A stretch of DNA of 64,000 bases from an uncultured Lachnospiraceae bacterium (lineage in GTDB: Bacteria > Bacillota > Clostridia > Lachnospirales > Lachnospiraceae), in contig CALWLT010000005.1 of NCBI GenBank assembly GCA_944381615.1, positions 1-64,000 on the forward strand. The letters run 5' to 3'. Made by a program: the position numbers and the translations under genes. Of the stretch, positions 2,483 to 63,382 are shown one piece after another. The notes beneath the pieces are model-generated. The model had not been told where the DNA came from and made no database searches. It saw only the letters and a program-made list of their open reading frames with translations. The first letter of the stretch is position 1. The number at the start of each line of letters is the position of its first letter.

Positions 2483-3382
2483 ATGACCAAACGCTCCAAA
2501 ACAACCATGTCGGTCCGGGAGATGGGAAACCTGCTTGGACTGAAGAAAGTCGATTCGTACTGGCTGGTCCACAAAGGTTTTTTTGAGACCATCCTTGTGG
2601 GCGGAAAGATGCGGGTCGTGATTGAGAGCTTTGAGAACTGGTACGCACATCAGGCTAAGTACCATAAGGTGACAGGGGAACCGCCGGGAGAACTGCTGAA
2701 GCAGGAGTCATATTCTGCAAGGGATATCGCCGGGATCCTAGGAGTATCCGAATCCTATGTCTATGAAATTATGAAAGCTGCCGGTGTCAAACCGGTGATG
2801 GTCGATTTCCGGCAGCGGTTCCGCAGGGAGGATTTTGAACGATGGTACAGCAGTCAGACCCGGTTCCGCAATGATGAGGATCGCCGCAGGGATGAGGAAA
2901 TGGAAGAAAGCTCCATGAGCATGCCGGATATGGCGAGGCTTCTGGACGTTTCCAGAAGTGTCGTTTACGGAATTCTTCAAAGTGATCTGGGGAAGGAAAT
3001 GCTGGAAGTGATCATCATTGCCGGCCGGAAACGGATTACCAAGGAAAGCTTTGACCGGTGGTACGCTAGTCAGACCCGATATCTGAAGCCCGAAGACCAG
3101 CCGGAAGGTGTTCCCCGGAGACATAAAAGTTACGCTGATACGCTCGTAAAGAAGAAAGTGAAAACAGACTCGGATCCCAGAGAGGTCCGATACAGTTCAA
3201 ATCCGGATTATCTTACGATCGACGAAGCTGCCTATATGGCAAAGGTGAGCATGGATCGCATTTACCGCTGGATCCAGTCGAGTAAGGTCCCGGCATTGAA
3301 GATCGCCAAGAGAGTGACCCGGATCCCCCGGAGAGATTTTGAAATGTTCCTCGAAGAATATATGAAGCAGGATAAGGAGTAA
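2483..3382 (+). CDS. Protein with four excisionase-type HTH-17 units
   Basis: 299 residues, RBS AGGAGG 9 bases upstream. I count four consecutive HTH-17-like units: about 8-55 (SVREMGNLLGLKKVDSYW ... FENWYAHQ), 75-132 (YSARDIAGILGVSESYVYEI ... FERWYSSQTRF), 148-205 (SMPDMARLLDVSRSVVYGIL ... FDRWYASQTRY) and 235-290 (LTIDEAAYMAKVSMDRIYRW ... RRDFEMFL). Each has the same plan: a helix pair, a basic wing, and a closing helix with WY. Single-unit proteins are ordinary excisionases; four in a row suggest binding to an array of sites, for example the attachment-site arm repeats. It is followed 4 bases later by the integrase gene, so joint expression is likely. Confidence 0.75.
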   Translation: MTKRSKTTMSVREMGNLLGLKKVDSYWLVHKGFFETILVGGKMRVVIESFENWYAHQAKYHKVTGEPPGELLKQESYSARDIAGILGVSESYVYEIMKAAGVKPVMVDFRQRFRREDFERWYSSQTRFRNDEDRRRDEEMEESSMSMPDMARLLDVSRSVVYGILQSDLGKEMLEVIIIAGRKRITKESFDRWYASQTRYLKPEDQPEGVPRRHKSYADTLVKKKVKTDSDPREVRYSSNPDYLTIDEAAYMAKVSMDRIYRWIQSSKVPALKIAKRVTRIPRRDFEMFLEEYMKQDKE

Positions 3383-5429: not shown

Positions 5430-6211
5430 ATGACAAAAGCAGATGAAAAAGCTCTGGCAGAAAGAAATGGTAATTTAAAATATAGAAATAGCAGGATATG
5501 ATATTAGGAGCATGATTTATGTCGTGCGTAATCAGCAAGTTATGATAGATAGCGATTTGACTATGCTGTATCAGGTTGAAACAGGAGCATTGAACAGGGT
5601 TGTAAAAAGAAATATAAAAAGATTTCCAGAGGATTTTAGGTTTCAGCTTACTGTGAAGGAATATGAAAACTTGAAATGCCAATCTGGCATTTCAAGTTGA
5701 GCGTATCAGCAATGTGGAACTGAAGCAGTTGGAATACCAGAAACAGACCGATGAAAAATTGGAGCAGATATTTGAGTACATATCTGAACATGAAGAAGCC
5801 AGTCAAAAGATATTCTTTGACGGTCAGATTTATGACGCGTTCAGCCTGATTGTCCGTCTGGTACAAAAGGCGGAAAAGGAAATCACGCTGATAGACGGAT
5901 ATGTGGATGTGGGAACATTGAATTTGCTTTCCAAGAAAAACGAAAATGTGTCTGTGACAATCTACACGCAGAAACGGACAAGACTCACGAAAACAGATGT
6001 GGAAAATTTTAATGCACAGTATCCGTCTTTGGAAATGAAATATACGAAGGGATTCCATGATCGCTTTTTCATTCTTGACAGAGAAACAGCCTACCATGTA
6101 GGGGCATCTTTGAAAGACGCAGGAAAGAAATGTTTTGGAATTAACCTTATCCAGGATGCAGGGATCATTAAAGACATATTGCAGAGGTTGGAATTGGAAA
6201 TGGAAGAATGA
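5430..6211 (+). pseudogene. Broken ORF6N-domain antirepressor-type gene
   Basis: The coding signal starts at ATG 5430 (MTKADEKALAERNGNLK). One extra base near 5480 shifts the frame, and the next frame continues as IEIAGYDIRSMIYVVRNQQV, then DLTMLYQVETGALNRVVKRN, a typical ORF6N domain. At about 5697, after CQSGISS, the frame stops and coding resumes in another frame with ERISNVELKQLEYQ up to 6211. I believe the family's middle part, usually tens of residues, is missing here. So there is one frameshift and one internal deletion. The C-terminal piece (TDEKLEQIFEYISEHE ... QDAGIIKDIL) is the usual coiled-coil/tail domain. ORF6N proteins are phage and element regulators. The remnant lies between two tRNA-tail repeats, so it is the relic of a separate small element. 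Confidence 0.75.
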
Positions 6212-8095: not shown

Positions 8096-9619
8096 TCAGG
8101 CGCGGTGGCCGCCAATCTGGTTGTTGCGATCGGCGGCGGTGGCGCCTTCCTGGAGATTCATTCCCCTGAGAACGGCATTTTTTCCGAATTTTTTCTTAAT
8201 CTCCAGTACGGCCTGCTGCATTTTTTTCTCCCGCTTCCGCTCATTTTTTTCGGTTTCTTTCTGCTTCTGCTGCGCGTCATAATCGGTAAACAGGGTAAGC
8301 TGCTGAAAATCCGGTTCTCCCGGCGCTTCGCTTTCCGCGATGACGCGGATGGCGGTAAGCGTGATTCGGCGCGCAAGAAGCTTTTCGTCGGCAATCCGCT
8401 CAAAAAGAGAGGTGGCTGCCTGCATGATCAGCCGGGCGGAGGAAGTAGGGCATTCCAGATTTTCGGTGCCGTGCGCGTGGCGGGGGACCGCGCGGCCGTA
8501 GCAGTCAGTCTGCAGACTGTTCTGATACTGTTTTCGCAGAGCAGGATTTTGCAGGTTTTCCCGGTCGTAATCGATGGTCAGAACAAGCTGGCTGGTCAGA
8601 AGCTCCTGTTCGACAAGCTGCAGGGCCAGGGAATCGGCCATTTCCCGCACGGCCAGCCGGGTTTTTTCATAGGGATAGGGGCAGGGCAGCACCTGTCCGC
8701 TTCCGATGCTGCGGTTTTCGGGCCGATAGGACCGGATGTCGGAAATAGTACACGGTTCCCAGCCCCAGGCGTGGTCGATAAGCAGCTCGGCGTTTACGCC
8801 GAATAAGCTGTAAAGCAGATCTTCATTATAATAATCCTCCGGCCTGCCCAGGGAGCAGCGGGCGATATCGCCCATGGTAAAAAGGCCGATCCGTTCCAGG
8901 CGGGAGGCGTATCCTTTTCCTACGCGCCAGAAATCCGTGAGCGGACGGTGGTTCCAGAGCCGGCGGCGGTAGGAGAGCTCGTCGAGGCGGGCGATGCGCA
9001 CGCCGTGTTCATCGGCCGGGCTGTGTTTGGCTTCAATATCCATGGCGATTTTGCAAAGATAGAGATTGCTTCCGATTCCGGCCGCCGCCGTGATGCCGGT
9101 GGAGGCGAGCACGTCGAGAATGATGGTCCGCGCCAGTTCCTCCGGGGTTTTTCCGTATGTTTTCAGATAGGAGGTGGCGTCGATGAATACTTCATCAATG
9201 GAATAGACGTGCATATCTTCGGGCGCGATATAGTTCAGATAGATCTGGTAAATCTGCGCGCTGATCTGCATGTAACGGGCCATCTGCGGCGGCGCGACGA
9301 TGTAGTCGAGGGCCAGCGATGGATCGGCGGCCAGTTTTTTTGTATCAGAAGAAGAGCCGGTTAAGCGGCGGCCGGGGGCAAGGCGGCGCCGTCCGGCGTT
9401 TAACCGGGCGACCTGCCGGATGACTTCAAACAGGCGCGGCCGTCCGGGAATGCCAAAGGATTTGAGCGCGGGAGAGACGGCCAGGCAGATGGTTTTTTCC
9501 GTCCGGCTTTCGTCTGCCACGACCAGGCAGGAGGTCATGGGATCCAGATGGCGATCCACGCATTCTACGGAAGCGTAAAAGGATTTCAGATCGATGGCAA
9601 TATAGATCCGATCGCTCAT
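8096..9619 (-). CDS. Y-family DNA polymerase (UmuC/DinB type)
   Basis: 507 residues. The N-terminus MSDRIYIAIDLKSFYASVEC has the catalytic Asp and the steric-gate/SFYASVE motif, and 'DMHVYSIDEVFIDAT' carries the second catalytic acidic pair (S-I-D-E). A fingers region with GIPGRPRLFEV, a helix-hairpin-helix region (FWRVGKGYASRLERIGLFTM) and the little-finger domain follow. The C-terminal 60 residues are basic and coiled-coil-like (QQKQKETEKNERKREKK). This class performs error-prone translesion synthesis. The length and the neighbouring YolD gene favour the UmuC-like Firmicutes subgroup over DinB proper. Confidence 0.9.
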   Translation of the reverse strand: MSDRIYIAIDLKSFYASVECVDRHLDPMTSCLVVADESRTEKTICLAVSPALKSFGIPGRPRLFEVIRQVARLNAGRRRLAPGRRLTGSSSDTKKLAADPSLALDYIVAPPQMARYMQISAQIYQIYLNYIAPEDMHVYSIDEVFIDATSYLKTYGKTPEELARTIILDVLASTGITAAAGIGSNLYLCKIAMDIEAKHSPADEHGVRIARLDELSYRRRLWNHRPLTDFWRVGKGYASRLERIGLFTMGDIARCSLGRPEDYYNEDLLYSLFGVNAELLIDHAWGWEPCTISDIRSYRPENRSIGSGQVLPCPYPYEKTRLAVREMADSLALQLVEQELLTSQLVLTIDYDRENLQNPALRKQYQNSLQTDCYGRAVPRHAHGTENLECPTSSARLIMQAATSLFERIADEKLLARRITLTAIRVIAESEAPGEPDFQQLTLFTDYDAQQKQKETEKNERKREKKMQQAVLEIKKKFGKNAVLRGMNLQEGATAADRNNQIGGHRA

Positions 9620-36984: not shown

Positions 36985-37018
36985 ATTGACATTTTTTGTA
37001 AAACGGAGTACGATAAAA
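36985..37018 (+). promoter_or_regulatory. Strong sigma-A promoter for the leader of the aldehyde oxidoreductase locus
   Basis: TTGACA at about 36987-36992, a 17-base spacer TTTTTTGTAAAACGGAG, and TACGAT at about 37010-37015. The -35 is consensus. The first coding ATG lies almost 300 bases downstream, leaving a long untranslated leader. Confidence 0.75.
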
Positions 37019-37021
37019 CCA

Positions 37022-37180
37022 GCGAAATCAACCGAATAAAGCGAGAGTTATTTTTCGAGCCGAAGGCGCTAAGTGGGAAGATCTCATATGCGCCGGGGCC
37101 AATGGGTACTGCCGGAAACGGCGGCGCCTTCCGTGTTTGAAAAGAAAGTAATGCGCGTTTTCTTGATGAGGATCAGAAGG
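37022..37180 (+). ncRNA. Structured leader RNA, riboswitch candidate of unknown class
   Basis: About 160 transcribed bases with clear pairing. GAAGGCGC (near 37061) can pair with GCGCCTTC (near 37126) to close a domain. Inside it lie a tetraloop hairpin GCCG-GAAA-CGGC and a possible GGCGC/GCGCC pairing that competes with the closing stem. The domain is followed directly by two intrinsic terminators before the first gene. I could not match it to a riboswitch class from memory; a molybdenum-cofactor sensor would suit the genes but is only a guess. It might also be a separate small RNA. Confidence 0.5.
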
Positions 37181-37207
37181 GGACAAAAGGGATTTTGTCT
37201 GTTTTTT
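37181..37207 (+). terminator. Leader terminator 1
   Basis: GACAAAA (37182-37188), loop GGGA, TTTTGTC (37193-37199), with an extra G-T pair at the base, followed by TGTTTTTT. It lies inside the leader, more than 100 bases before the first start codon, so expression of the downstream genes needs read-through or antitermination. Confidence 0.75.
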
Positions 37208-37225
37208 GCTATCATACGGAGAGAG

Positions 37226-37257
37226 CGGAACTGTCTTTTCAGACGGTTCCGTTTTTT
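37226..37257 (+). terminator. Leader terminator 2
   Basis: CGGAACTGTC (37226-37235) pairs with GACGGTTCCG (37242-37251; one G-U pair) and is followed by TTTTTT. It is the second of two terminators in tandem, 53 bases before the first ATG, with no further promoter visible in between. Confidence 0.85.
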
Positions 37258-37309
37258 ATTGGGGGAATTCCGGTTCCTGAAAAAAGCCGCAGGATTGACG
37301 GGGGAGAAG

Positions 37310-37741
37310 ATGGAGAGGGACATTTTAAGACTGAATGAACTGCTTTTATCCGGACGCTGCTGCGCCCAGGCGCTGACGGCGCTGGGACTTGAGTTAAGAG
37401 GCGAGGAAAACGAGCAGCTTCTGACGGCCGCGGCGGCGCTCTGCCAGGGGATCCGCAGCGGGATGACCTGCGGGGCGCTGACGGGCGCGGCCATGATGAT
37501 GAATCTGTTTGCGCCGGAGGATGCGATGCGCGAGCTGATCCCGGAGCTGACGCAGTGGTTTAAGGAGACGTACGGCGAGGCCTACGGCTCGGCGGACTGC
37601 GACGCGATTCTGGAGGGGAACCCGGCCAACCGGGCGCGCTGTCCCGGGATTGTGGAGAATACCTACCGCAGGGCGAGAGAGCTTCTGGAGGATGCGGGTG
37701 TGGATTTTGACGCGCTCTTAGATCGCCTGGAGGAGGCATAG
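37310..37741 (+). CDS. C-GCAxxG-C-C family protein (DVU_1555-like)
   Basis: 143 residues from ATG 37310. I prefer this start because GGGGGAG precedes it and the upstream frame runs through both leader terminators. Conserved positions are GRCCAQ near the N-terminus, GMTCGALTGAA in the middle (the C-GAxxG core), then GSADCDAIL and ARCPGIVE. The family is small, Cys-rich, redox-related or metal-binding, with no proven activity. It is the first gene of the aldehyde oxidoreductase block. From memory, relatives of this subtype accompany the same partners in Desulfovibrio (DVU_1555 family). Confidence 0.8.
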   Translation: MERDILRLNELLLSGRCCAQALTALGLELRGEENEQLLTAAAALCQGIRSGMTCGALTGAAMMMNLFAPEDAMRELIPELTQWFKETYGEAYGSADCDAILEGNPANRARCPGIVENTYRRARELLEDAGVDFDALLDRLEEA

Positions 37742-37877: not shown

Positions 37878-40799
37878 ATGAAATTGAGAAAAATGGTACT
37901 GAAGATCAACGGTGTCGAGCGGATCTTCATGTGCGATCCGGAGCATGACAAGCTTTCGGACGTCCTTCGCCGGCTGGGGCTGACCGGCGTCAAGGTAGGC
38001 TGCGGTACGGGTGTCTGCGGCTCCTGTTCCGTCATCCTGAACGGAAAGGTAATCCGTTCCTGTACGAAGAAGATCACGCAGGTCGAGGAGTATTCCGAGA
38101 TTACCACGATCGAGGGAATCGGAACGCCGCAGCATCTGCATCCTCTTCAGGTTGCCTGGATGCAGCGCGGCGCCGTACAGTGCGGCTTCTGCGTACCGGG
38201 CTTCATCGTTTCCGCATACGCCCTGCTTCAGGAGAACCTGAACCCGACCCGCGAGGAGGTCCGCGACTGGTTCCAGAAGACGAGAAACGTATGCCGCTGC
38301 ACGGGCTACAAGCAGATTGTAGACGCGGTTATGGACGCTGCCAGAGTGATGCGCGGCGAGTGCGATATCGAGGATATCAAGTTCCATAATCCGGAAGACG
38401 GCGAGTACTACGGCAAGCCGATCGTCCGTCCCGACTCTCTGGCGAAGGTCTGCGGCCTTGCGGATTACGGCGACGATCAGGCGCTGAAGATGCCCGACGG
38501 CACGCTGTACGCGGCGGTTGTTCAGCCGAGAGTGGCGCATCACGCCAAGATCCTGGCGATCCACACCGAGGAAGCCGAGAAGATGCCGGGCGTGGTAAAG
38601 GTTATCACGGCCAAGGATATCCTTGCGGCAGGCGGAACCAACCTGATGGCAGAGGGACAGTTCCACGAGAGAAGTACGGTTATGGTGCCGTCCCGTAAGG
38701 TTCTTCAGGATGAGAAGATCTTCCGCTACGGCGACGTTGTGGCCCTGGTTGTGGCGACGAGCCACCGTCAGGCGAGAGAGGCTGCGGCCAAGGTTACGGT
38801 AGAGATCGAGAAGCTGCCGGAGTACCTGACCTACCTGGATGCCGTTATGCCTGACGCGATGCGCATCCATGAGGATACGCCCAACATCTTCGCCGAGCAG
38901 CCCGTATTAAAGGGAGCCGGCCTTGAGGATGCCGAGGAGGTTAAGGAGATCATCGACAAGGCGCCGCACGTGGTAGAGGGAAGCTTCATGTCCACCCGCG
39001 AGCCGCATCTGTCCATCGAGGGCTGCGTGCTTCAGTCCTACTGGGGCGACGACGGCCTGCTGACCATCCAGTGCAAGTCGCAGTGTACATACTCCTCCAT
39101 CGGACGTCTCGGAAACTGCCTGGGCGTGCCGAAGGACAAATACAGAATTATCATGAACCCGACGGGCGCGAGCTTCGGCTGGTCCACCAACGCCGGCGAC
39201 CTGGCGCTGTGCGCGGCCTGCACGGTTGTAACCGGCGAGCCGGTATCCCTGTCCATGTCCTATGAAGAGCATCAGCACTTCAGCGGCAAGAGATGCCCGG
39301 CCTACTCCAACGGACGTCTGGCCTGCGATGACGACGGCAAGATCCTGGCGGTTGAGTTCGATTTCGGTATGGACCACGGCGCATACTCCTGGGGCGGCGA
39401 CGACGTTATGACGAAGCCGGCGCGTTTCGCGTTCTTCCCCTACAGCATTCCCAACGTAGCGGGCCTGGTTCGTGTGGCCAATGTAAACCACGCGTTCGGT
39501 ACGGCTTACAGAAGCTATGGTTCTCCGCAGGCCTATACGCTGTCCGAGCCGCTGATGGATATGATGGCGGAAGAGCTGGGCATGGATCCGTTCGAGTTCC
39601 GCTATAAGAACATCTGCCGTGAGGGCGAGACCAATATCAACAGCTATCCGTTCCCGCAGTATCCGATGGAGAAGATGATGGATACCATGCGGCCGATCTA
39701 TGAGAAGGCCGTTGCGGATGCCAAGGCGGCCGATACGCCGGAGAAACGGCGCGGCGTAGGCCTTGCATGGGGCGGATTCAACGTAACCGAGGGTGTTTCC
39801 GACAGCGCCGAGGTTGCTCTGGAGCTTCTTCCGGACGGCCGGATCCGCAAGTACGACACCTGGCATACGATGGGCCAGGGCGGCGCGGTAGGTTCTGTGA
39901 TGGTAACGCTGGAGGCTTTAAAAGAGCTGAAGCTGACGCCCGAGGATATTCATCTGGTACAGAATGACACCAAGCTCTGCCCGGATACGGGTATGGCCGG
40001 CGCGAGCCGTTCCCTGTACATGGACGGCAACGCGACCAAGATTGCGGCGGAGAAGCTGCTGAACGCCATGAGAAAGGCCGACGGCACGTTCCGCACCTAC
40101 GACGAGATGAAGGCGGAAGGCATCGAGACCAAGTATCTCGGACGCTATGAGACGACTGCGACGCCCGGTCTGTGCCGTCTGGATCCGAATACCGGTATCG
40201 GCGACCCGACCCCGGCATTTACCTACTGCCTGAACCTGGCGGAGGTTGAGGTCGACACGGCGACCGGCAAGACCACGGTTCTCAAGTTTACCTGCGTGGA
40301 CTTCGTAGGACGCATCGGCAACATCGACGCGGTCAACGGACAGGCCTACAGCGGCATCATGCACAGCATCGGCTTTGCCCTGAAGGAAGATTACCATGAT
40401 GTGAAGAAGCACGCCAACATGTTCGGCGCCGGCACTTCCTACATCAAGGACGTCCCGGACGACATCACGCTGGTTCATCTGGACGGCGAGATCTCGGACG
40501 GCCCGTTCGGTTCTTCGGGAGCTTCCGAGGCGTTCCAGGCATCCGGCCACTGCGCGGTACTGAACGGTATTTACAACGCCTGCGGCGTCCGCATCCATGA
40601 GATGCCGGCTCTGCCCGAGAAGGTTAAGGCCGGACTTGACGCCATCGCGAAGGGCGAGAAGCCGTACGAGCCCAAGAAGTATTTCCTTGGCTCCGACCTC
40701 TACGAGGAGCTGGAGAACATCAAGGAGAATCCGGTACAGGTAGGCGGCGGCGACTTCTACGTATCGCTTGACGATCCTGACGCGGAGCGTCCGTTCTAA
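37878..40799 (+). CDS. Molybdenum aldehyde oxidoreductase, single-chain Mop/AOR type
   Basis: 973 residues, AAGGAGG 8 bases upstream. Residues 1-75 form a plant-type [2Fe-2S] domain (GCGTGVCGSCSVI ... SCTKK); 76-160 form the second [2Fe-2S] domain (QCGFCVPGF ... CRCTGYKQI). The molybdenum-binding domains follow without any FAD domain, as in Desulfovibrio gigas Mop: a Gln loop GQGGAVGSVMV and the catalytic Glu in GSSGASEAFQASG. Such enzymes oxidise aldehydes to acids with water, using a molybdopterin cytosine dinucleotide cofactor. The FAD-less design implies an external electron acceptor, and the next gene encodes a suitable one. Codon use is that of a highly expressed gene. Confidence 0.93.
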   Translation: MKLRKMVLKINGVERIFMCDPEHDKLSDVLRRLGLTGVKVGCGTGVCGSCSVILNGKVIRSCTKKITQVEEYSEITTIEGIGTPQHLHPLQVAWMQRGAVQCGFCVPGFIVSAYALLQENLNPTREEVRDWFQKTRNVCRCTGYKQIVDAVMDAARVMRGECDIEDIKFHNPEDGEYYGKPIVRPDSLAKVCGLADYGDDQALKMPDGTLYAAVVQPRVAHHAKILAIHTEEAEKMPGVVKVITAKDILAAGGTNLMAEGQFHERSTVMVPSRKVLQDEKIFRYGDVVALVVATSHRQAREAAAKVTVEIEKLPEYLTYLDAVMPDAMRIHEDTPNIFAEQPVLKGAGLEDAEEVKEIIDKAPHVVEGSFMSTREPHLSIEGCVLQSYWGDDGLLTIQCKSQCTYSSIGRLGNCLGVPKDKYRIIMNPTGASFGWSTNAGDLALCAACTVVTGEPVSLSMSYEEHQHFSGKRCPAYSNGRLACDDDGKILAVEFDFGMDHGAYSWGGDDVMTKPARFAFFPYSIPNVAGLVRVANVNHAFGTAYRSYGSPQAYTLSEPLMDMMAEELGMDPFEFRYKNICREGETNINSYPFPQYPMEKMMDTMRPIYEKAVADAKAADTPEKRRGVGLAWGGFNVTEGVSDSAEVALELLPDGRIRKYDTWHTMGQGGAVGSVMVTLEALKELKLTPEDIHLVQNDTKLCPDTGMAGASRSLYMDGNATKIAAEKLLNAMRKADGTFRTYDEMKAEGIETKYLGRYETTATPGLCRLDPNTGIGDPTPAFTYCLNLAEVEVDTATGKTTVLKFTCVDFVGRIGNIDAVNGQAYSGIMHSIGFALKEDYHDVKKHANMFGAGTSYIKDVPDDITLVHLDGEISDGPFGSSGASEAFQASGHCAVLNGIYNACGVRIHEMPALPEKVKAGLDAIAKGEKPYEPKKYFLGSDLYEELENIKENPVQVGGGDFYVSLDDPDAERPF

Positions 40800-40948
40800 T
40801 TTTCATCAGCAACAAAAACTGAAGCACTGCTGTTTCTCCCCGCTTCCCTGTGGGGCGGGGAGAAAACTGGGGCGGAAGGTTCTTCCCCGTGCGCTCTGCT
40901 GCAACACAGCCGGAGCCGCGGGGATTTTTGGTATTGGCAGGAGGTTTT

Positions 40949-43207
40949 ATGAGTTTTCTGGAGGATTTTGAAAAGACGCTGGCGGAAAAATGCCGTCAGA
41001 ATGAGCCGCCGTTCTGTCAGGCGGCCTGTCCCTTTCATCTGGAGATCCGGGATCTGGAGGAAAAATGGAAGAAGGGCCGTTTTAATGCGGCATACCGGAC
41101 GTATCAGAATACGGTAGGGTTTCCCGGGATTGTGGCGAAGCTCTGCGGCCGTCCCTGCGAGAGGGCCTGCGTGCGCGCGCGCATCGACGCGCCGGTGTCG
41201 CTGGGGCTTCTGGAAGAGGCGACGGTCCGTCTGGCGAAGCGGAAAACCCCTAACGCCTATAACCTGCCTTCCAAGGGGCGGAAAATCGCCATCGTCGGCG
41301 GCGGCTTAAGCGGGCTGGGCTGCGCCCTGCGCCTGTGCAATAAAAAATACGAGGTAACGGTGTTTGAAAGGGAGGAGGTTCCCGGCGGACGGGGCCGCGC
41401 GCAGATGGACGCGCAGGAGTTTGACCGGGAAATCCAGAATCAGTTTCAGTTTGAAGCGCCAGCGTGGCGGCTGGGACAGGAGGTAACCTCGCTGGAAGCG
41501 CTGCGGGAGGAATTCGAGGCGATCTATGTGGCCACCGGCCCCGGCGGAGCGGATTTCGGTCTGAAGGCGGACGCGGGCGGCGCGTTTGCCACCACGACGC
41601 CCGGCGTGTTCATGGGCGGCGGGCTGACCGGCTCGGATCCGATGACGGCGCTGGCGGACGGGCTTGACGCGTCCCATGCGATCGAGCGCTTTCTGAAGAC
41701 CGGCGGCATGAATGAGCCGCATCAGAGAAAGGGGACGCTTCTGGAGCTGAATGAATCCCTGATTGAGAAAAAGGAGCCGGTGCTGCCGGCCGATCCGGCG
41801 GGGTATACGGCGGAGGAGGCGATGCAGGAGATCGCGCGCTGCGAGCGCTGTTCCTGCGATGCCTGCATGAAGGCCTGCGATCTGATGCGCACGTTTGAGA
41901 AGACGCCGCGGCGGATCTGGGAAGAGGTGTACATAACGATCCGGCCGGGCACGCTTTCGCGCGACGGGACCTGGGCAACGCGCTTGATCGCCACCTGCGA
42001 TCAGTGCGGCCTGTGCAAGGCCGTCTGCCCGCAGAAGATCGATCTGGGCGAATTTTTCCTGGAGAGCCGCCGGGCGATGCACGACAAGGGGGCCATGCCC
42101 TGGCCGTATCATGATTTCTGGCTGCGGGATATGGAATTTTCCGCGAAAGAGGCGAAAGTCTGCCGCCGGCCGAAGGGGAAAGAAACGAGCGAATACGCCT
42201 TTTTCCCGGGCTGCCAGATGGCCGGTTCGGATGAGCGCTACGTGACGAAAACGTACGAATGGCTTCTTTCCAAAAAACCGGATACGGCGATGTGGATGAC
42301 CTGCTGCGGCGCGCCGGCGGAGTGGGCCGCCGACCAGACGCGTTATCAGGCGTATCTGGATACGCTTAAGGCGGAATGGCGGGAGTTGGGAGAGCCGACG
42401 GTTATTTTTGCCTGCGCAAACTGCAGGAAGCTTTTTAAACAGTATCTGCCGGAGATCCCCGGCGTGTTTCTTCCCGAGGTAATGGAAGAGTGGGGCATCG
42501 AGCCGGCCGCGCCGGAGGAAGGGGCGGAATTTGCAGAGACTTACGCCGTCTTTGATCCGTGCACCAGCCGGGAATTCCCTGAACTGCAGGACAGCGTGCG
42601 CCGCCTGATGGACGCGCACGGGCTGAAGCGGGAGAGCCTGCGCTATGAGAAGGAGAAGGCGCGCTGCTGCGGCTACGGCGGCCATATCGGGATCGCGGCG
42701 TCTGCCTATACCAGACGCGTGGCCCATCTGCGCAGCGAGGAGAGCGCGCGCCCGTATCTGACGTACTGCGTCAACTGCCGGGAATCCTTCGCGGGGCAGG
42801 AAAAGGAAGTCATCCATTTTCTGGACTGGATCTTCGGCATCAACGGCGGCCGCCGGCCGCCGGCGACGGTAACGGAGAAGCGCAGCCGGAGGCTGGCGGC
42901 GAAAAAGCGGCTTTTGGAGATATTCTGGCAGGAGACGGTAAAGGAGGAAGCGCGGATGCAGCTGGAGGTAACGAAGGAGCTGGAGCGAAAGCTCTCGGAC
43001 AGCCAGATCCTGGTTCAGGATATGGAGGAGGTCATTGCCCACTGCGAGAAAGAACAGGCCGGGGCGCTGGATCCGGAGACGGGACACGTCATCGGCCACC
43101 TGAAGATACAGAATATCACGTACTGGGCGGAATACGAGGCGCTGGAAGGCGGCGGCTACAGGCTGTGGAACGGATATTCACACCGCATGAATCTGGAGGG
43201 AGAGTGA
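40949..43207 (+). CDS. NAD(P)-disulfide-oxidoreductase-like/dicluster-binding electron-transfer protein (DVU_1558-like)
   Basis: 752 residues from ATG 40949 (GGCAGGAGG upstream). Domain order: a GltD/DPYD-like Fe-S N-terminus (CQAACPFHLEIRD; CGRPCERAC), and a Rossmann FAD site (KIAIVGGGLSGLGCALRL) with a shortened FAD domain. Then come a ferredoxin-like pair (CERCSCDACMKAC; CDQCGLCKAVCP) and a heterodisulfide-reductase-type CCG domain twice (FFPGCQMAG ... TCCGAPAEW ... CANCRKL; FDPCTSREF ... RCCGYGGHI ... CVNCRE). A helical C-terminus completes it. The NAD-binding half seems reduced. It looks built to pass electrons from the aldehyde oxidoreductase to a disulfide, quinone or ferredoxin. From memory NCBI names such proteins 'pyridine nucleotide-disulfide oxidoreductase/dicluster-binding protein'. 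Confidence 0.85.
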   Translation: MSFLEDFEKTLAEKCRQNEPPFCQAACPFHLEIRDLEEKWKKGRFNAAYRTYQNTVGFPGIVAKLCGRPCERACVRARIDAPVSLGLLEEATVRLAKRKTPNAYNLPSKGRKIAIVGGGLSGLGCALRLCNKKYEVTVFEREEVPGGRGRAQMDAQEFDREIQNQFQFEAPAWRLGQEVTSLEALREEFEAIYVATGPGGADFGLKADAGGAFATTTPGVFMGGGLTGSDPMTALADGLDASHAIERFLKTGGMNEPHQRKGTLLELNESLIEKKEPVLPADPAGYTAEEAMQEIARCERCSCDACMKACDLMRTFEKTPRRIWEEVYITIRPGTLSRDGTWATRLIATCDQCGLCKAVCPQKIDLGEFFLESRRAMHDKGAMPWPYHDFWLRDMEFSAKEAKVCRRPKGKETSEYAFFPGCQMAGSDERYVTKTYEWLLSKKPDTAMWMTCCGAPAEWAADQTRYQAYLDTLKAEWRELGEPTVIFACANCRKLFKQYLPEIPGVFLPEVMEEWGIEPAAPEEGAEFAETYAVFDPCTSREFPELQDSVRRLMDAHGLKRESLRYEKEKARCCGYGGHIGIAASAYTRRVAHLRSEESARPYLTYCVNCRESFAGQEKEVIHFLDWIFGINGGRRPPATVTEKRSRRLAAKKRLLEIFWQETVKEEARMQLEVTKELERKLSDSQILVQDMEEVIAHCEKEQAGALDPETGHVIGHLKIQNITYWAEYEALEGGGYRLWNGYSHRMNLEGE

Positions 43208-43211
43208 TCGG

Positions 43212-43448
43212 ATGCCGACGATAGACGGAGGAGGAAGAGATCAGAGGCTGAAGGAGGCCTTTGAGCGGGAGGTAATCTGCCGCCGCTGCGGCGTAAAGAT
43301 GGAGGCCAGAAAGACGTTTTTTGACTATCTGGGGCATAACTTCCACACGGAGGTGCTGTGCTGCCCGAAATGCGGCGAGGTGTTTATCCCGGAGAAGCTG
43401 GTAAAGGGCCGTATGGCGCAGGTAGAGCAGGAGCTGGAGGATAAATGA
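43212..43448 (+). CDS. Small CxxC redox/zinc-ribbon protein (DVU_1557-like)
   Basis: 78 residues. Two Cys pairs, CRRCGVKM and CCPKCGEVF, form a rubredoxin- or zinc-ribbon-like site, with a conserved helix-turn (KTFFDYLGHNFHTEVL) between them. It sits 4 bases after the dicluster protein gene and overlaps the radical SAM gene by 4 bases (ATGA type), so translation is coupled. Its partner in a metal- or sulfur-handling step is probably the radical SAM protein or the oxidoreductase. Function unknown. Confidence 0.8.
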   Translation: MPTIDGGGRDQRLKEAFEREVICRRCGVKMEARKTFFDYLGHNFHTEVLCCPKCGEVFIPEKLVKGRMAQVEQELEDK

Positions 43449-44881
43449 TGGCGGCGCTTCCGGAGGCGATGAAAAACACGTACAGCGTCTGCCCGGTCTG
43501 CCTGGAGCGGCTTTTGGCCAGGCGCAAGATGCGGGAGGACGGAATCTATCTGGTCAGGACCTGCCCGCGGCACGGGACGTTCTCCAGCCTGATCTGGAGA
43601 AACCGAGTGGATTTTGCGGCGTGGCGGGGAGAGCGGCCGGCGGTCGGGGCGGAGGAAAACCGGAACTGTCCGTCCGGCTGCGGCCTCTGCCCGGATCATC
43701 TCCGGGCGACGTGCTGCACGCTTCTTGAGATCACGGACCGCTGCAATATGGACTGCGCGTTCTGTTTTGCGGATCCGGCCGCCCGGCCGGATCCGCCTCT
43801 GGAGGAAATCCGGCGCCGGATCCGGGAGCTGACGGATCCGGGGAAAACGCTTCTTCAGCTTTCCGGCGGAGAACCGACGGTGCGCGAAGATCTGCCGGAA
43901 ATCGTGGCCTGCGCCAGAGAAGCCGGTTGCAAATATGTGCAGTTAAACAGCAACGGCCTGCGGCTGGCGCAGGAGGAAGCGTTCGTAAAGAAGTTAGCGG
44001 ACGCGGGGCTTTCGTTTGTGTTTCTGCAGTTTGACGGGGTAACCGACGCCGTTTACGAGACGCTGAGAAAGCGTCCTCTGCTGGAGATTAAAAAGCGGGC
44101 GATCGAAAACTGCGGGCGCTTCGGGATCGGCGTCACGCTGGTCCCGGTTCTGGTGCCCGGCGTGAACACGGATCAGATCGGGGAGATCATCCGCTTTGCC
44201 GCCGCCCGTTCGCCGTACGTGCGGGGCGTCCATTTCCAGCCGGTCAGCTATTTCGGGCGCATTCCGCGGCTGCCGCGGGACGAGGACCGCTATACGTTGG
44301 ATGAGCTGATGGAGGCGGTCGTCAGTCAGAGCGGCGGGCTGGTAAAGATGGAGAATCTGGCGCCGTCCAGCTGCGACCATCCGCTGTGCGGATTTCACGG
44401 GGATTTTATCGTGATGCCCGACGGGAGCCTGATGGCGCTGACCAGCCGGAAGGCGGAGCAGGCGTTTGCCTGCCGGGATGCGCGCAATCCGGCGGAGCAA
44501 AACCGGGAATTTGTCGGCCGCCGCTGGGGGCGGCGGGAAGTTCGGCCGGTAAAGGAGGCAGGCGCGGGCTCCGATCCGGCCGGAGCAGGAGCCGCGGCTG
44601 CGGGGACAGGAGCCGATTTGGCCGGGCAGACGGGCGCGGGAAGTTCGGCCGCGGAGTACGGCGATATGACGAGCATGGAGTTTTTCCTGAAGCGGGCCAG
44701 AAGCCATGGATTTACCGTTACCGCCATGGCGTTTCAGGATGCGGGGAATCTGGATATCGAGCGGCTGCGTCAGTGCAGCCTGCACGTGTACCGGGACGGG
44801 AAAAAGATCCCGTTCTGCGCCTGTTATCTGACGCCGATGGGAGAAAAAGCGGACGCGGCGCGGGGAGGAGAAAACGGATGA
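43445..44881 (+). CDS. Radical SAM protein, TrsS-like
   Basis: 478 residues. An N-terminal zinc-ribbon-like part (VCPVCLERLLARRK ... TCPRHGTF) precedes the radical SAM core with C100-NMD-C104-AF-C107. GGEPTVREDLPEI and LNSNGLRLAQ follow, plus a TIM-barrel with GVTLVPVLVPGVN. After the barrel comes a Cys/His cluster SSCDHPLCGFHG and a C-terminal region ending PFCACYLTPMG. A Gly/Ala-rich insert lies at about 372-405. Some relatives are selenoproteins as I recall; here the corresponding positions are plain Cys and no in-frame TGA occurs. It may modify a cofactor or small substrate for the aldehyde oxidoreductase; the reaction is not known to me. Confidence 0.85.
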   Translation: MMAALPEAMKNTYSVCPVCLERLLARRKMREDGIYLVRTCPRHGTFSSLIWRNRVDFAAWRGERPAVGAEENRNCPSGCGLCPDHLRATCCTLLEITDRCNMDCAFCFADPAARPDPPLEEIRRRIRELTDPGKTLLQLSGGEPTVREDLPEIVACAREAGCKYVQLNSNGLRLAQEEAFVKKLADAGLSFVFLQFDGVTDAVYETLRKRPLLEIKKRAIENCGRFGIGVTLVPVLVPGVNTDQIGEIIRFAAARSPYVRGVHFQPVSYFGRIPRLPRDEDRYTLDELMEAVVSQSGGLVKMENLAPSSCDHPLCGFHGDFIVMPDGSLMALTSRKAEQAFACRDARNPAEQNREFVGRRWGRREVRPVKEAGAGSDPAGAGAAAAGTGADLAGQTGAGSSAAEYGDMTSMEFFLKRARSHGFTVTAMAFQDAGNLDIERLRQCSLHVYRDGKKIPFCACYLTPMGEKADAARGGENG

Positions 44882-46854
44882 GAGAAGAGGAAACGCTCTG
44901 CCGGCCGGGCGGCTTTGCCTTAACGGATGAGCTTTTGCGCTTTGCCGGGCTGGAAGAACAGCATGCGCTGCGGGTGCTGGACGTGGGCTGCGGGCATGGC
45001 GCGTCCGTGACGTATCTGCGGGCGCGGTTTCCCGACTGGCGGATCTCGGGCCTGGATGCGGATCCCGTTCTGCGCCGCGAGGGGATTTGTGAAACCGGGC
45101 GGGCGGAAGCGCTCCCGGTCCCGGATCAGAGCCTGGATGTGATCCTGATGGAGTGCAGCCTTTCCCGGATCGGGCGCCCGCAGCAGGCGCTGGCGGAAGC
45201 GCTGCGGGCGCTGCGCCCGGACGGCTGGCTTCTGATCAGCGATATGTACGCCCGCAAAAAGGAGCTTGGAACGGAGCGCGGGGATGCGGACGGGCAGGAG
45301 GCTGCCGGGGAGCGGGGCGGTCTGCTGGGCCGTCTGGAATTCTCCCGGCATATCTGGAAACGGCTTTCGCAGGCGGGATTTTCTGTGCTGGAGATGGAGG
45401 ATCGCTCGCGGGCGCTGACGCAGTGGATCGGGCAGCAGATCCTGGACGGGAACGGAGGGAGCCTCGACGCGGCTCTGGGCGTGGATCGGGCGTCGCTGCG
45501 CGAGGCGGGCTGCGGTTATTATGTCTGCGCGGCGCGTCCTTCGCTGCTCTGGCGGCTGCTTTGGTTTGTGCGGGAGAAAAGCCCGTTTTACCGGGAACGG
45601 CTGCAGGAGGCCGGGATCGGGGAGATCGCGCCCGGAGACTGGGATTCGTTTCTTCGCATCCCCTTTACCACGGCCGGGGAGCTGCGGGAGAAGCCGGAGG
45701 CGTTTCTCTGCGTGCCACCCAAGGAGATCGCGCGCATCATCACGCTTCGCACCTCCGGCAGCAGCGGCGCGCCCAAGCGCCTGTTTTTTACGGAGGATGA
45801 TCTGCTGCGGACGGCGGATTTTTTTGAAACGGGAATGCAGTATCTGGTAAGTCCGGGCGGGAGCGTCACGGTCTATATGGAGGGGCCGGGCTTTTTCTCG
45901 ATCGGAGGCCTTTTGAAAGAAGGGCTGGGGCGGATTGGCGTCACGGCGACGGTGCACGGGCTGATCCGCGACATGGAAGCGGCGGCGGCGGACGGGAAAG
46001 GGAGGGACTGCCTGATCGGCGTCCCGTCCCAGATGTACGGGCTGGCCGTGTACGCGCCGTGGCTGCGGCCGAAAACGGTACTTTTGAGCGCGGATTACGT
46101 GCCGCAGAGCGTAAAGGAATATCTGGAAAAAACCTGGGAGTGCCGGGTGTTTACGCACTGGGGGATGACGGAAACGGGATACGGCGGCGGCGTTCAGTGC
46201 GGCGCGCGGGAGGGATACCATCTGCGGGACCGGGATCTGCTGCTGGAGATCATCGATCCGCAGAGCGGGCGGCCGGTTCCCGACGGGGAGTACGGGGAGC
46301 TGGTGCTGACGACGCTCTCGCGGCGCGGAATGCCGCTTGTCCGCTACCGCACCGGCGACTGGGGGCGTTTCCTCATGGATCCCTGCGGCTGCGGCTGCCT
46401 GAAGCCGCGCCTGGAAGAGGTAAAGGGGCGGCTTGACGACGGCGTCGTGCTGCCGGACGGCTCGCTGCTCTCGATTCACAGGCTGGACGAGCTTCTGCTC
46501 TCGTCGGGGGAGATCCAGGATTTCAGGGCGGAATACGACAGGGAAACAAACCGGCTTTTCGTGACGGTCATGGGGCGGGAAGCGGGGAAGGGCGTGCCGG
46601 AACGCAGAACAGAGGCGGGAGAAGGAGCGCCGGAGCGCAGAACAGAGGCGGAAGAAGGAGCGCCGGAGCGCAGAACAGAGGTGGAAGAAGACGTGCCGGA
46701 GCGCGGTGCGGCGGCCGCGGCAGCCGCCCTGCTGCAGGCGGAATTTGGCGGCCGGGCCGATATTCGTGTGGAAAGCGGGATTCTTTCGCCTTACATCGGT
46801 TCCGCGAAGCGGACGCTGGGGGAGCGCGCCGTTTCTGGCGGACAGCCCGGGTAA
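44878..46854 (+). CDS. Fusion of SAM methyltransferase (TrsM-like) and AMP-dependent CoA ligase (DVU_1553-like)
   Basis: 658 residues from ATG 44878, which overlaps the stop of the radical SAM gene by 4 bases; longer frames upstream are shadows. Residues 1-215 are a class I methyltransferase: VLDVGCGHGASVTYL, GLDADPVL, LMECSLSRIGRPQQAL. Residues 225-590 resemble phenylacetate-CoA ligase: WFVREKSPFYRERL, IPFTTAGELRE, the P-loop TLRTSGSSGAPKRLFFT, HWGMTETGYGGG and YRTGDWGRF. A repeat of 13 residues (GAPERRTEAEE type, 3-4 copies) is inserted near 575-615, before a last C-terminal piece. The ligase would activate a carboxylic acid, perhaps the product of the aldehyde oxidoreductase. In Desulfovibrio the two functions are separate genes, as far as I recall. 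Confidence 0.85.
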   Translation: MREEETLCRPGGFALTDELLRFAGLEEQHALRVLDVGCGHGASVTYLRARFPDWRISGLDADPVLRREGICETGRAEALPVPDQSLDVILMECSLSRIGRPQQALAEALRALRPDGWLLISDMYARKKELGTERGDADGQEAAGERGGLLGRLEFSRHIWKRLSQAGFSVLEMEDRSRALTQWIGQQILDGNGGSLDAALGVDRASLREAGCGYYVCAARPSLLWRLLWFVREKSPFYRERLQEAGIGEIAPGDWDSFLRIPFTTAGELREKPEAFLCVPPKEIARIITLRTSGSSGAPKRLFFTEDDLLRTADFFETGMQYLVSPGGSVTVYMEGPGFFSIGGLLKEGLGRIGVTATVHGLIRDMEAAAADGKGRDCLIGVPSQMYGLAVYAPWLRPKTVLLSADYVPQSVKEYLEKTWECRVFTHWGMTETGYGGGVQCGAREGYHLRDRDLLLEIIDPQSGRPVPDGEYGELVLTTLSRRGMPLVRYRTGDWGRFLMDPCGCGCLKPRLEEVKGRLDDGVVLPDGSLLSIHRLDELLLSSGEIQDFRAEYDRETNRLFVTVMGREAGKGVPERRTEAGEGAPERRTEAEEGAPERRTEVEEDVPERGAAAAAAALLQAEFGGRADIRVESGILSPYIGSAKRTLGERAVSGGQPG

Positions 46855-60797: not shown

Positions 60798-61673
60798 ATG
60801 AAGGGGATTGTGATCTTTGGCGCGGGGCAGGCGGGAATGGCGCTGTACCGCCTGCTGCAGCGGCGGGGAAACCGTGTCGTTGCCTTTGGCGACAACAAAG
60901 AGGAGCTGTGGGATCAGCGGCGGGAGGGACTTCCCATCTGGCCGTTTGAACGGGTGCTTGAGGCGGATCCGGAGGAGATCTGGCTGGCGATCGTCAATGA
61001 GGACGCGCAGCGGGAATTAAAGGCGCGTTTTCGCGCCCGCGGCTATGGCGGACGCCTGTTTGGCCTTTCGGATTTGCGGGAGCGCTTCCAGCTGCGTCTG
61101 GCGGCCTGCCGCCTGCTGGCGCAGGAGATCCGCCGCCGGGGCGTCGCCGGGGACGTGGCGGAGCTGGGCGTTTATCAGGGCGAGTTTGCGGAGGAATTAA
61201 ACCGGCTGTTTCCGGAGCGGCGGCTGTACCTGTTCGATACGTTTTCCGGCTTCGACGGGAGAGATATCGGGAGCGCGGACGGCGCGCGGGCAAAGGCGGG
61301 ACAGTTTTCCGACACGTCCGCGGAGGCGGTGCTGGCGCGGATGGAAACGCCGGGACAGGTCGTGATAAAGAAGGGGCTTTTTCCGGAAAGCCTGGGCAAG
61401 ATGGCGGCGGAGCGTTTTGACGGGCGTTTTGCCCTGGTCAGCCTCGATGTGGATCTCTACCGGCCGACGATGGCGGGCCTTACGTACTTTTACCCCCGGC
61501 TGTCGCCCGGCGGGTATCTGATTCTGGATGATTACAACAGCCCCCAGTTTCCGGGCGCGGGACAGGCGATCCGGGAATTCTGCGACCGGGAGGGGCTGGG
61601 CGTGGTGCCGCTGCCGGATCTGCACGGCACGGCGGTGCTGGTAAAGACGGGAAAGACGGGAGGAAGACGGTGA
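60798..61673 (+). CDS. Rossmann-domain/TylF-type methyltransferase fusion
   Basis: 291 residues. Residues 1-100 form a nucleotide-binding Rossmann-like domain (KGIVIFGAGQAGMALYRLLQ ... IWLAIVNEDAQRELKARF), as in proteins that change sugar or acyl groups. Residues 110-285 resemble the TylF/MycF O-methyltransferase family: VAGDVAELGVYQGEFAEELN (SAM loop), LYLFDTFSGFDGRD, FALVSLDVDLYRPT and GGYLILDDYNSPQ with its metal-binding Asp pair. The substrate is unknown. It overlaps the NTP transferase gene by 4 bases, which argues for a role in the same pathway. Confidence 0.82.
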   Translation: MKGIVIFGAGQAGMALYRLLQRRGNRVVAFGDNKEELWDQRREGLPIWPFERVLEADPEEIWLAIVNEDAQRELKARFRARGYGGRLFGLSDLRERFQLRLAACRLLAQEIRRRGVAGDVAELGVYQGEFAEELNRLFPERRLYLFDTFSGFDGRDIGSADGARAKAGQFSDTSAEAVLARMETPGQVVIKKGLFPESLGKMAAERFDGRFALVSLDVDLYRPTMAGLTYFYPRLSPGGYLILDDYNSPQFPGAGQAIREFCDREGLGVVPLPDLHGTAVLVKTGKTGGRR

Positions 61674-63382
61674 GAACGATTTATCTGGCGCGGCACGGGA
61701 AGCCGGATTTCCCGGACGGGGAAAAGCGCTGCATCGGGCGGACGGATCTGCCGCTCGGAGAGGAAGGGCGCGGACAGATCCGGGCGCTTGCCGGATCGCT
61801 TTCGCGGGCGGAGATCGAGTGCATTTACACGAGTCCGCTGCGCCGCTGCGTGGAATCGGCGCAGATTCTTTCCGGAGGGCGGATCCCGGTGCGGGTGGTT
61901 CCCGGGATGGAAGAGATCGATATGGGGGCTTGGGAGAACCGGACGTTTGATGAAATCCGGGCGCGGTGGCCGCGGGAATACGAGGCGCGCGGGCTGGATA
62001 TGGCGGGGTTTGCCCCGCCGGGCGGCGAGAGCTTTTGCGCCTGCCAGAAGCGCGCGCAGGAGGTTTTTGAAAAAATCCGCCGTGAGAGCCGGGGAAACGT
62101 GCTTCTGATGGGCCATGCCGGCTGGAACCGGACGCTGATCGCGGCCCGGGAGGGACGTCCGCTGGCAGAGCCGTTTGCGATCCCGCAGCCGTACGGCGGG
62201 ACGTATGCCTGGGAGGAGCCGGTGTTCGACGCGATGATCGTGGCGGCCGGGCTTTCCTCGCGCATGGGGGGCTTTAAACCGTTTCTGGAGATCGGAGGGA
62301 AAAGCTTTCTGGCGCGGGAGATTGAGGGGCTGCGGCGCGGCGGCGCGCGGGAGATTGCCGTCGTCACGGGGTACCGGGCGGACGAGGTGGAGGCTGCGGC
62401 GCGGGAAGCGGCCGGGCAGGAGATTGTGTTTCTGCACAATCCCGCCTACGAGACGACGAAGATGTTTGACTCGGTAAAGCGGGGCCTTTCGTATTACGAG
62501 GAGAAACGGCGGCGTCCGGAGGGAAAAACGCTGGACGGGATTTTTTTCCTGCCGGTGGATGTACCGCTGTTTACGGCGTTTACCATGGAGTATGAAAAAG
62601 CGGAGTTTTTAAAAGGAAGCGGGGACGTGTACTGCCCGTATTATGAGGGCGCGCCGGGACATCCGCTGCTGATTCGGGCGTCGGCGCTTCCTGCGCTTCT
62701 GGCGCACGACGGGGAGCGCGGGCTGAAGGGCGCGTATGAGCGCCTGGGCGATCGGGTCGTTCATCTGGATGTGACGGATCGGGGCTGCGTGATGGACGCG
62801 GACACGAGAGAAGACTTTGACCGGCTTGAGGCGTATGAGAACGGCCGCCATGTGCCGGACGGGGAAACGTGCGAGCGGCTGCTGGCCTGGTTTCGGACGC
62901 CGCCGGAGACGGTGCGCCACTGCCGGGCGGTGGCGGCGCTGGCGGAGGAGATCGGGCGCGCCGCCAATGCCCGCGGCGCGGGCCTTTCGCTGGAGCGCAT
63001 CCGCGCGGCGGCGCTGCTGCACGATGTGGCGAAGGCGTGGCCGGATCATGCGCGCGCGGGAGAGCGGTTCCTCTCTCTTCTGGGGCATGACAAAATCGCA
63101 CAGATCGTGGGCGATCACATGGATTATCCGGAGGAAAAGCTGGATGAGCTGAGCGAGGGCCTGATCGTGTACGCGGCGGACAAGCTGGTGCAGGGGGAAC
63201 GGCGCGTGACGCCGGAGGAACGCTTTGGCGCGAAGCGGGAGCGTTTTAAAGAGGATCCGCAGGCGCAGGCGGCGGTAGAGCGCCGGTATGCGAGGGCGAA
63301 ACGGGCGCTTGAGACGATACGGCGCGCGGCGGGAGAGACAGACGCAGAAGATGGAAGGCCGGCTGTGCGGGCTTCGGTTTAA
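61670..63382 (+). CDS. Histidine phosphatase/MobA-like NTP transferase/HD-domain fusion (DVU_1551-like)
   Basis: 570 residues from GTG 61670, overlapping the previous stop. Residues 1-180 are a histidine phosphatase: YLARHGKPDF with H8, later IYTSPLRRC and GHAGWNRTLI. Residues 187-390 are a MobA/MocA-type nucleotidyltransferase: DAMIVAAGLSSRMGGFKPFL (signature loop), VVTGYRADEVEAA, FFLPVDVPLFTAFT and GAPGHPLLI. Residues 405-550 are an HD domain with LLHDVAKAWPDH (H451-D452). The NTP transferase would attach CMP or GMP to molybdopterin; cytosine dinucleotide is what the Mop-type enzyme needs. The family name DVU_1551 is recalled, not checked. The roles of the phosphatase and HD parts are unknown. 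Confidence 0.87.
   Translation: MRTIYLARHGKPDFPDGEKRCIGRTDLPLGEEGRGQIRALAGSLSRAEIECIYTSPLRRCVESAQILSGGRIPVRVVPGMEEIDMGAWENRTFDEIRARWPREYEARGLDMAGFAPPGGESFCACQKRAQEVFEKIRRESRGNVLLMGHAGWNRTLIAAREGRPLAEPFAIPQPYGGTYAWEEPVFDAMIVAAGLSSRMGGFKPFLEIGGKSFLAREIEGLRRGGAREIAVVTGYRADEVEAAAREAAGQEIVFLHNPAYETTKMFDSVKRGLSYYEEKRRRPEGKTLDGIFFLPVDVPLFTAFTMEYEKAEFLKGSGDVYCPYYEGAPGHPLLIRASALPALLAHDGERGLKGAYERLGDRVVHLDVTDRGCVMDADTREDFDRLEAYENGRHVPDGETCERLLAWFRTPPETVRHCRAVAALAEEIGRAANARGAGLSLERIRAAALLHDVAKAWPDHARAGERFLSLLGHDKIAQIVGDHMDYPEEKLDELSEGLIVYAADKLVQGERRVTPEERFGAKRERFKEDPQAQAAVERRYARAKRALETIRRAAGETDAEDGRPAVRASV

Follow-up and report, generated by a model that had tools for sequence, protein, structure and literature searches.

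A P3-less Moco/tungsten-cofactor-family riboswitch upstream of a xanthine-oxidase-family aldehyde oxidoreductase cluster in an uncultured Lachnospiraceae bacterium

What kind of RNA is the long leader ahead of an aldehyde oxidoreductase gene cluster in an uncultured Lachnospiraceae bacterium, which metal cofactor might it sense, and in which direction would it control the genes behind it? These questions are raised by a 64,000-nt stretch of that organism's DNA (GCA_944381615.1, CALWLT010000005.1, positions 1-64,000; hereafter the window), whose relevant features are collected in Table 1, with gene functions given as the names of the family models. The leader is an RNA of an already known class; its use before an aldehyde-oxidoreductase cluster is informative, and the interest of the locus lies in this association with an enzyme of the xanthine-oxidase family. 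The aptamer is placed upstream of genes for users of the Mo/W cofactor, and the same gene stands behind homologous copies.

Table 1. Features of the leader and of the gene cluster behind it (window coordinates)
Feature	Position	Strand	Basis
Sigma-70-type promoter	36986..37014	+	TTGACA (36986-36991), 17-nt spacer, TACGAT (37009-37014)
Moco/tungsten-cofactor riboswitch aptamer (RF01055), P3-less form	37040..37163	+	Rfam match and covariation
P1 5' strand UUUUC	37052..37056	+	alignment and fold
P2/P4 junction CAAU, place of the missing P3	37100..37103	+	RF01055 alignment; junction-length comparison
GAAA tetraloop of P4 (GNRA)	37115..37118	+	sequence; RF01055 alignment
Aptamer strand of predicted antiterminator, UGUUUGAAAAGA (P5/junction/P1 3' side)	37134..37145	+	folding, swap control
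P1 3' strand GAAAG	37144..37148	+	alignment and fold
T1, weak A/U-rich terminator-like hairpin	37181..37207	+	folding; poorly conserved
T2, intrinsic terminator, conserved expression platform	37226..37257	+	folding; leader comparison
Terminator strand of predicted antiterminator, UCUUUUCAGACG	37234..37245	+	folding, swap control
First controlled gene, DVU_1555-family C-GCAxxG-C-C protein	37310..37741	+	NF045669, 111 bits, cut-off 103
Xanthine-oxidase-family molybdopterin-dependent aldehyde oxidoreductase	37878..40799	+	NF045668, 1138.7 bits, cut-off 1100
Pyridine nucleotide-disulfide oxidoreductase/dicluster-binding protein	40946..43207 (start 40850 or 40946)	+	NF045663
DUF7479 protein	43212..43448	+	
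Radical SAM protein TrsS	43445..44881	+	NF045646
DVU_1556-type methyltransferase fused to DVU_1553-type AMP-dependent ligase	44899..46854	+	

Class and structure of the leader RNA

An Rfam search of the whole window, a check that an earlier sequence-only reading of this DNA had proposed, recovered RF01055 at 37040-37163 with 64.6 bits against a gathering cut-off of 36 (E 3e-13), the match spanning the full model (1-135 of 135). This places the leader in the Moco/tungsten-cofactor riboswitch family. That reading had been unable to assign it to a known class; a riboswitch of unknown class, suggested by the failure to place the leader from its letters, is ruled out by the full-length match far over the cut-off, the conserved core and the covariation. 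The reading's suggestion of a ligand related to the molybdenum or tungsten cofactor was right as to class, given the placement in RF01055.

In an alignment of 26 related copies, the stems P1, P2 and P4 around a conserved junction are supported by covariation: 88.9% of the cells are paired versus 39-51% with the structure slid, the covariation score is 0.654 versus 0.201 in shuffles (none of 500 shuffles reaching the observed value), and compensatory changes occur at 18 of the 25 pairs. Thus, by both the Rfam score and this covariation, the long leader is structured beyond chance, as had been claimed, and related copies keep the aptamer stems paired, a lack of conserved pairing in homologous leaders having been named as one observation that would speak against it. 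A receptor-like bulge in P2 appears to be formed by CUAAG (37069-37073) and UAUG (37087-37090), as judged from sequence and alignment. The P3 stem is absent from the aptamer, with the junction in its place being only 4 nt long; such P3-less copies made up 58 of the 176 copies of the motif in Regulski et al. 2008 (PMC2408646).

The closing helix proposed earlier, GAAGGCGC (37062-37069) with GCGCCTTC (37124-37131), is indeed present in the window, where all eight positions are complementary; it would connect P2's 5' strand with P4's 3' strand, and is therefore not part of the aptamer fold. Nor is it conserved: four homologous leaders retain 4, 3, 6 and 4 of the eight pairs, and the helix was rejected as a functional competitor on this account.

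The promoter matches 10 of 12 consensus positions, its TTGACA (36986-36991) bearing out a consensus -35 element previously placed at 36987, and transcription probably starts near 37021. A similar TTGAC... arrangement is seen 5' of the four homologous leaders. It is the sole sigma-70-like site on the + strand between 36000 and 38500, so that, in line with the earlier claim, no second promoter was found before the ATG at 37310.

Genomic setting and the metal of the ligand

A covariance model derived from the 26 copies was run against 77 loci that code for relatives of the enzyme. Copies were found upstream of the same enzyme gene in four more leaders of the window leader's group (L042, L050, L051 and L077), in Maledivibacter (L054), Sinanaerobacter (L067) and Formimonas (L043), in four other assemblies of Firmicutes or Clostridiales (L046, L066, L078 with two, and L098) and in a Synergistales assembly (L071). 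Most of the 77 loci have no such copy: the arrangement of riboswitch and enzyme recurs, and it is not universal. In L078 the two P3-less riboswitches (3040-3161 and 8815-8934) each directly precede their own copy of the enzyme. Tandem RF01055 aptamers were seen in Formimonas (L156, 1286-1414 and 1501-1629) and, before tupA, in a Synergistaceae assembly (L115, 1136-1292 and 1501-1620).

The length of the junction at the place of P3 is bimodal, either 2-6 nt or 16-55 nt with none between, and the P3 state of the 83 distinct aptamers tallied differs by the gene that follows. Those before the xanthine-oxidase-family enzyme are all P3-less (17, with none having P3), as are those before AFOR (5 and 0); before tupA, 21 are P3-less and 2 have P3, and before moeA or moeA-like genes 5 are P3-less and 9 have it. 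The copies before the enzyme differ in P3 state from the moeA copies (p 1e-4) and from all other copies together (p 0.03). Given the relatedness of the sequences and the presence among the 17 of copies that precede remoter members of the enzyme family (45-48% identity), all these numbers are descriptive.

The genome to which the window belongs carries three RF01055 copies, all P3-less: the one in the window, one before a tupA-like gene and one before moeA. The last heads a run of closely spaced genes for two MoeA-type proteins, a 155-aa protein that weakly matches a MoaC/MOSC fusion model, a ferredoxin and, as the only one of its kind in the genome, an AFOR-family, tungsten-type aldehyde oxidoreductase; the run lies at L133 3860-10483 (G000:C8), with tupABC and its own P3-less copy just upstream. 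Exactly one xanthine-oxidase-family enzyme is encoded, that of the window, and among the families searched there is no DMSO-reductase-family enzyme (PF00384). The tungsten-metabolism genes of the organism are AFOR and the TupA-like protein, the latter at 261 bits, below the equivalog cut-off of 400; ModA is also present. Elsewhere in the window, an ORF at 61670-63382 combines a histidine-phosphatase (CobC-like), a DVU_1551/MocA-like NTP transferase and HD domains, and close to it is a protein with a dinitrogenase iron-molybdenum cofactor domain (PF02579; 60217-60786). In the fused gene of the cluster, methyltransferase and AMP ligase share one ORF and the DVU_1556-type match is just under its cut-off (148.4 versus 155 bits).

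Moco and Wco riboswitches are listed apart in a 2022 review (PMC9481103), and Regulski et al. 2008 (PMC2408646) used correlation to link copies without P3 to the tungsten cofactor. On the strength of this published correlation we lean slightly to the tungsten rather than the molybdenum cofactor as the ligand of the window's aptamer. As the 17 copies before the enzyme, whose family is normally molybdenum-dependent, are all P3-less, either the enzyme follows the tungsten supply or the absence of P3 does not mean tungsten.

The latter view, in which the P3-less RNA senses the molybdenum cofactor too or instead, the enzyme is an ordinary molybdenum enzyme and P3 is uninformative about the metal, is plausible, if somewhat less likely than not. 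The enzyme shares its family, that of xanthine oxidase, with the aldehyde oxidoreductase of D. gigas, which holds Mo (PMC10223205); a MocA-like NTP transferase is encoded in the window and ModA in the genome; and the P3 rule is itself correlational, deletion of P3 from the E. coli RNA having only abolished regulation (PMC2408646). Against it, the P3-less copies cluster at tupA (21/23) and AFOR (5/5), whereas those of the moeA type mostly have P3 (9/14).

A further alternative, which we regard as rather unlikely, is an isozyme switch, wherein the tungsten cofactor represses the molybdenum aldehyde oxidoreductase so that the tungsten-dependent AFOR is used when tungsten is available. The OFF direction predicted below would fit such a switch, and the same tungsten-cofactor logic was suggested by Regulski et al. 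for two genes of S. wolfei (PMC2408646). An AFOR gene also occurs in 13 of the 13 genomes with the riboswitch before the enzyme; where the enzyme is encoded and the examined stretch lacks such a riboswitch, AFOR is found in 19 of 35 genomes (Fisher p 0.002; 0.016 when the genus is counted a single time). However, AFOR tracks the presence of any RF01055 copy (11/12 versus 8/23), and the association is therefore not specific to the enzyme arrangement; we rejected it as evidence for an isozyme switch, confounded as it is by RF01055 presence. Moreover, the single AFOR gene of this genome is itself in an operon behind another P3-less copy, that of moeA.

Returning to tungsten sensing, we tentatively raise the possibility that in several Firmicutes and in Synergistales a xanthine-oxidase-family aldehyde oxidoreductase has come under a tungsten-cofactor riboswitch, the enzyme being either made with tungsten or shut off in favor of AFOR. 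With one xanthine-oxidase-family enzyme, one AFOR, no DMSO-reductase-family enzyme found and three P3-less riboswitches, the genome of the window, together with the cultured relative Clostridium fessum, offers a compact setting in which the equation of P3 loss with tungsten sensing can be tested, the evidence for it in Regulski et al. 2008 (PMC2408646) being correlational.

Expression platform and direction of control

Both hairpins that had been described as two tandem intrinsic terminators are present, but they are not equivalent: T2 alone shows good conservation and coupling to the aptamer. The T1 stem (37181-37188/37193-37200) folds at -7.3 kcal/mol (z -2.7; 2 of 200 shuffles fold as well). 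In C. fessum it lacks a U-tract, and in the other leaders it is weak or differs; on these grounds T1 was rejected as the main switch, and it may be a pause site or a leaky extra terminator. The T2 stem (37226-37236/37241-37251), followed by TTTTTT, folds at -16.5 kcal/mol (z -5.7; 0 of 200 shuffles). T2 is conserved across five leaders that form one group, that of the window and L042, L050, L051 (taken to be the leader of C. fessum, from the same genus as the window's organism) and L077: its apical UGUCUUUUCAGA is invariant and the base of the stem varies with pairing kept, while the rest of the platform diverges. These five are close relatives, and their agreement does not amount to five independent events. 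A simple consensus terminator scan listed neither hairpin, probably because the stems can extend into the U-tracts. The window is not alone in having a double-hairpin platform: in the unrelated leader L046, the region about 20-90 bases past the aptamer, which ends at 5431, shows a second terminator-like hairpin, GCUAAAC..GUUUAGC, ahead of the main one.

Twelve bases of T2 (37234-37245), UCUUUUCAGACG, are complementary to the conserved aptamer core at 37134-37145, UGUUUGAAAAGA, a stretch that takes in P5, the junction and the first part of the P1 3' strand; the T2 bases involved lie in the loop and upper part of the hairpin and not at the base of its stem. All 12 bp of this helix can form in four of the leaders, and C. 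fessum keeps 11 of the 12. On folding the window transcript at successive lengths, this pairing is in the minimum-energy structure of transcripts ending at 37246-37254. Taken as equilibrium values of truncated transcripts, with no kinetic simulation, the energies at a transcript end of ..CAGACG show the antiterminator to be 0.4-2.2 kcal/mol away from the ensemble in each of the five leaders, versus 4.9-14.7 kcal/mol worse than the ensemble for P1-constrained states; once T2 is complete, the T2 states are within 0.2-1.7 kcal/mol. The predicted antiterminator would thus exclude both T2 and the closing stem P1 of the aptamer.

In a swap control, the window leader has 17.4 expected aptamer-terminator pairs with its own T2; combining its aptamer with terminators from other lineages gives a mean of 3.6 and a maximum of 10.7. 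Each leader's own terminator takes first place in all five members of the group and in 8 of 14 leaders overall, being elsewhere no worse than fifth; swapped terminators also pair to some extent, the aptamer cores being alike. In the leaders of other lineages, the same 3' side of the aptamer is predicted to pair with unrelated terminators. When only the aptamer 3' core was considered, 30, 14, 45, 136 and 72 of 2000 shuffles reached the observed helix in the five leaders. The best single helix over the whole aptamer, taken leader by leader, was not significant against shuffles, and in L051 it lies elsewhere. A long-gap duplex search of the aptamer against the downstream sequence was set aside as uninformative, long bulges inflating its background.

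We accordingly suggest the following course of events. Without ligand, the aptamer 3' core (37134-37145) would pair with the top of T2 (37234-37245), and this antiterminator would allow RNA polymerase to proceed into the C-GCAxxG-C-C/aldehyde-oxidoreductase cluster; once ligand is bound, P1 and the aptamer core would be locked, T2 would fold and transcription would stop before the ATG at 37310. The T2 platform of the five homologous leaders and the swap control favor the transcription-attenuating riboswitch that had been proposed from the architecture, and the leader is likely to be a ligand-OFF attenuator acting via T2, whichever metal is sensed. We do not put this direction higher than likely because swapped terminators pair somewhat and the untargeted helix search was not significant. 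It also counts against an OFF switch that the antiterminator would engage the upper part of T2 instead of its stem base, that the model gives T1 no role, and that a cofactor repressing its own apo-enzyme would be unusual, if the enzyme uses the cofactor that is sensed.

The opposite direction, in which the enzyme is made when the cofactor is present, would be logical for a cofactor-requiring enzyme, yet appears improbable here. In such a ligand-ON switch, a ligand-stabilized P1 would free UUUUCUU (about 37158-37164) to pair with the T1 5' arm AAGGGGAC and block T1, and when transcripts end at 37190-37198 their minimum-energy folds do contain a local hairpin over this arm. However, the UUUUCUU/AAGGGGAC pairing is not conserved, T1 has the deficiencies noted above in C. 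fessum and other leaders, and the stronger, conserved T2 would be left unexplained.

Comparison with known systems

Three known systems stand closest to the leader and its gene cluster. With the E. coli moaA RNA, an RF01055 member with P3, the leader shares the P1, P2 and P4 core, the GAAA tetraloop, the CUAAG/UAUG receptor-like bulge and the conserved 3' core GCCU(U/C)CC..GAAAAG; it differs in having no P3, in its predicted control by a terminator instead of occlusion of the ribosome site, and in preceding an aldehyde-oxidoreductase cluster. With the P3-less Tuco/Wco form it has in common the missing P3, an organism with tupABC and AFOR, and a terminator as expression platform, whereas the enzyme downstream is here of the xanthine-oxidase family, which normally uses molybdenum. 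The cluster itself parallels that of the D. gigas aldehyde oxidoreductase (MOP) and D. vulgaris DVU_1551-1559: the same NF045668 enzyme is accompanied by DVU_1555-, DVU_1553-, DVU_1556- and DVU_1551-type proteins and TrsS, but here in a Lachnospiraceae genome and behind a riboswitch.
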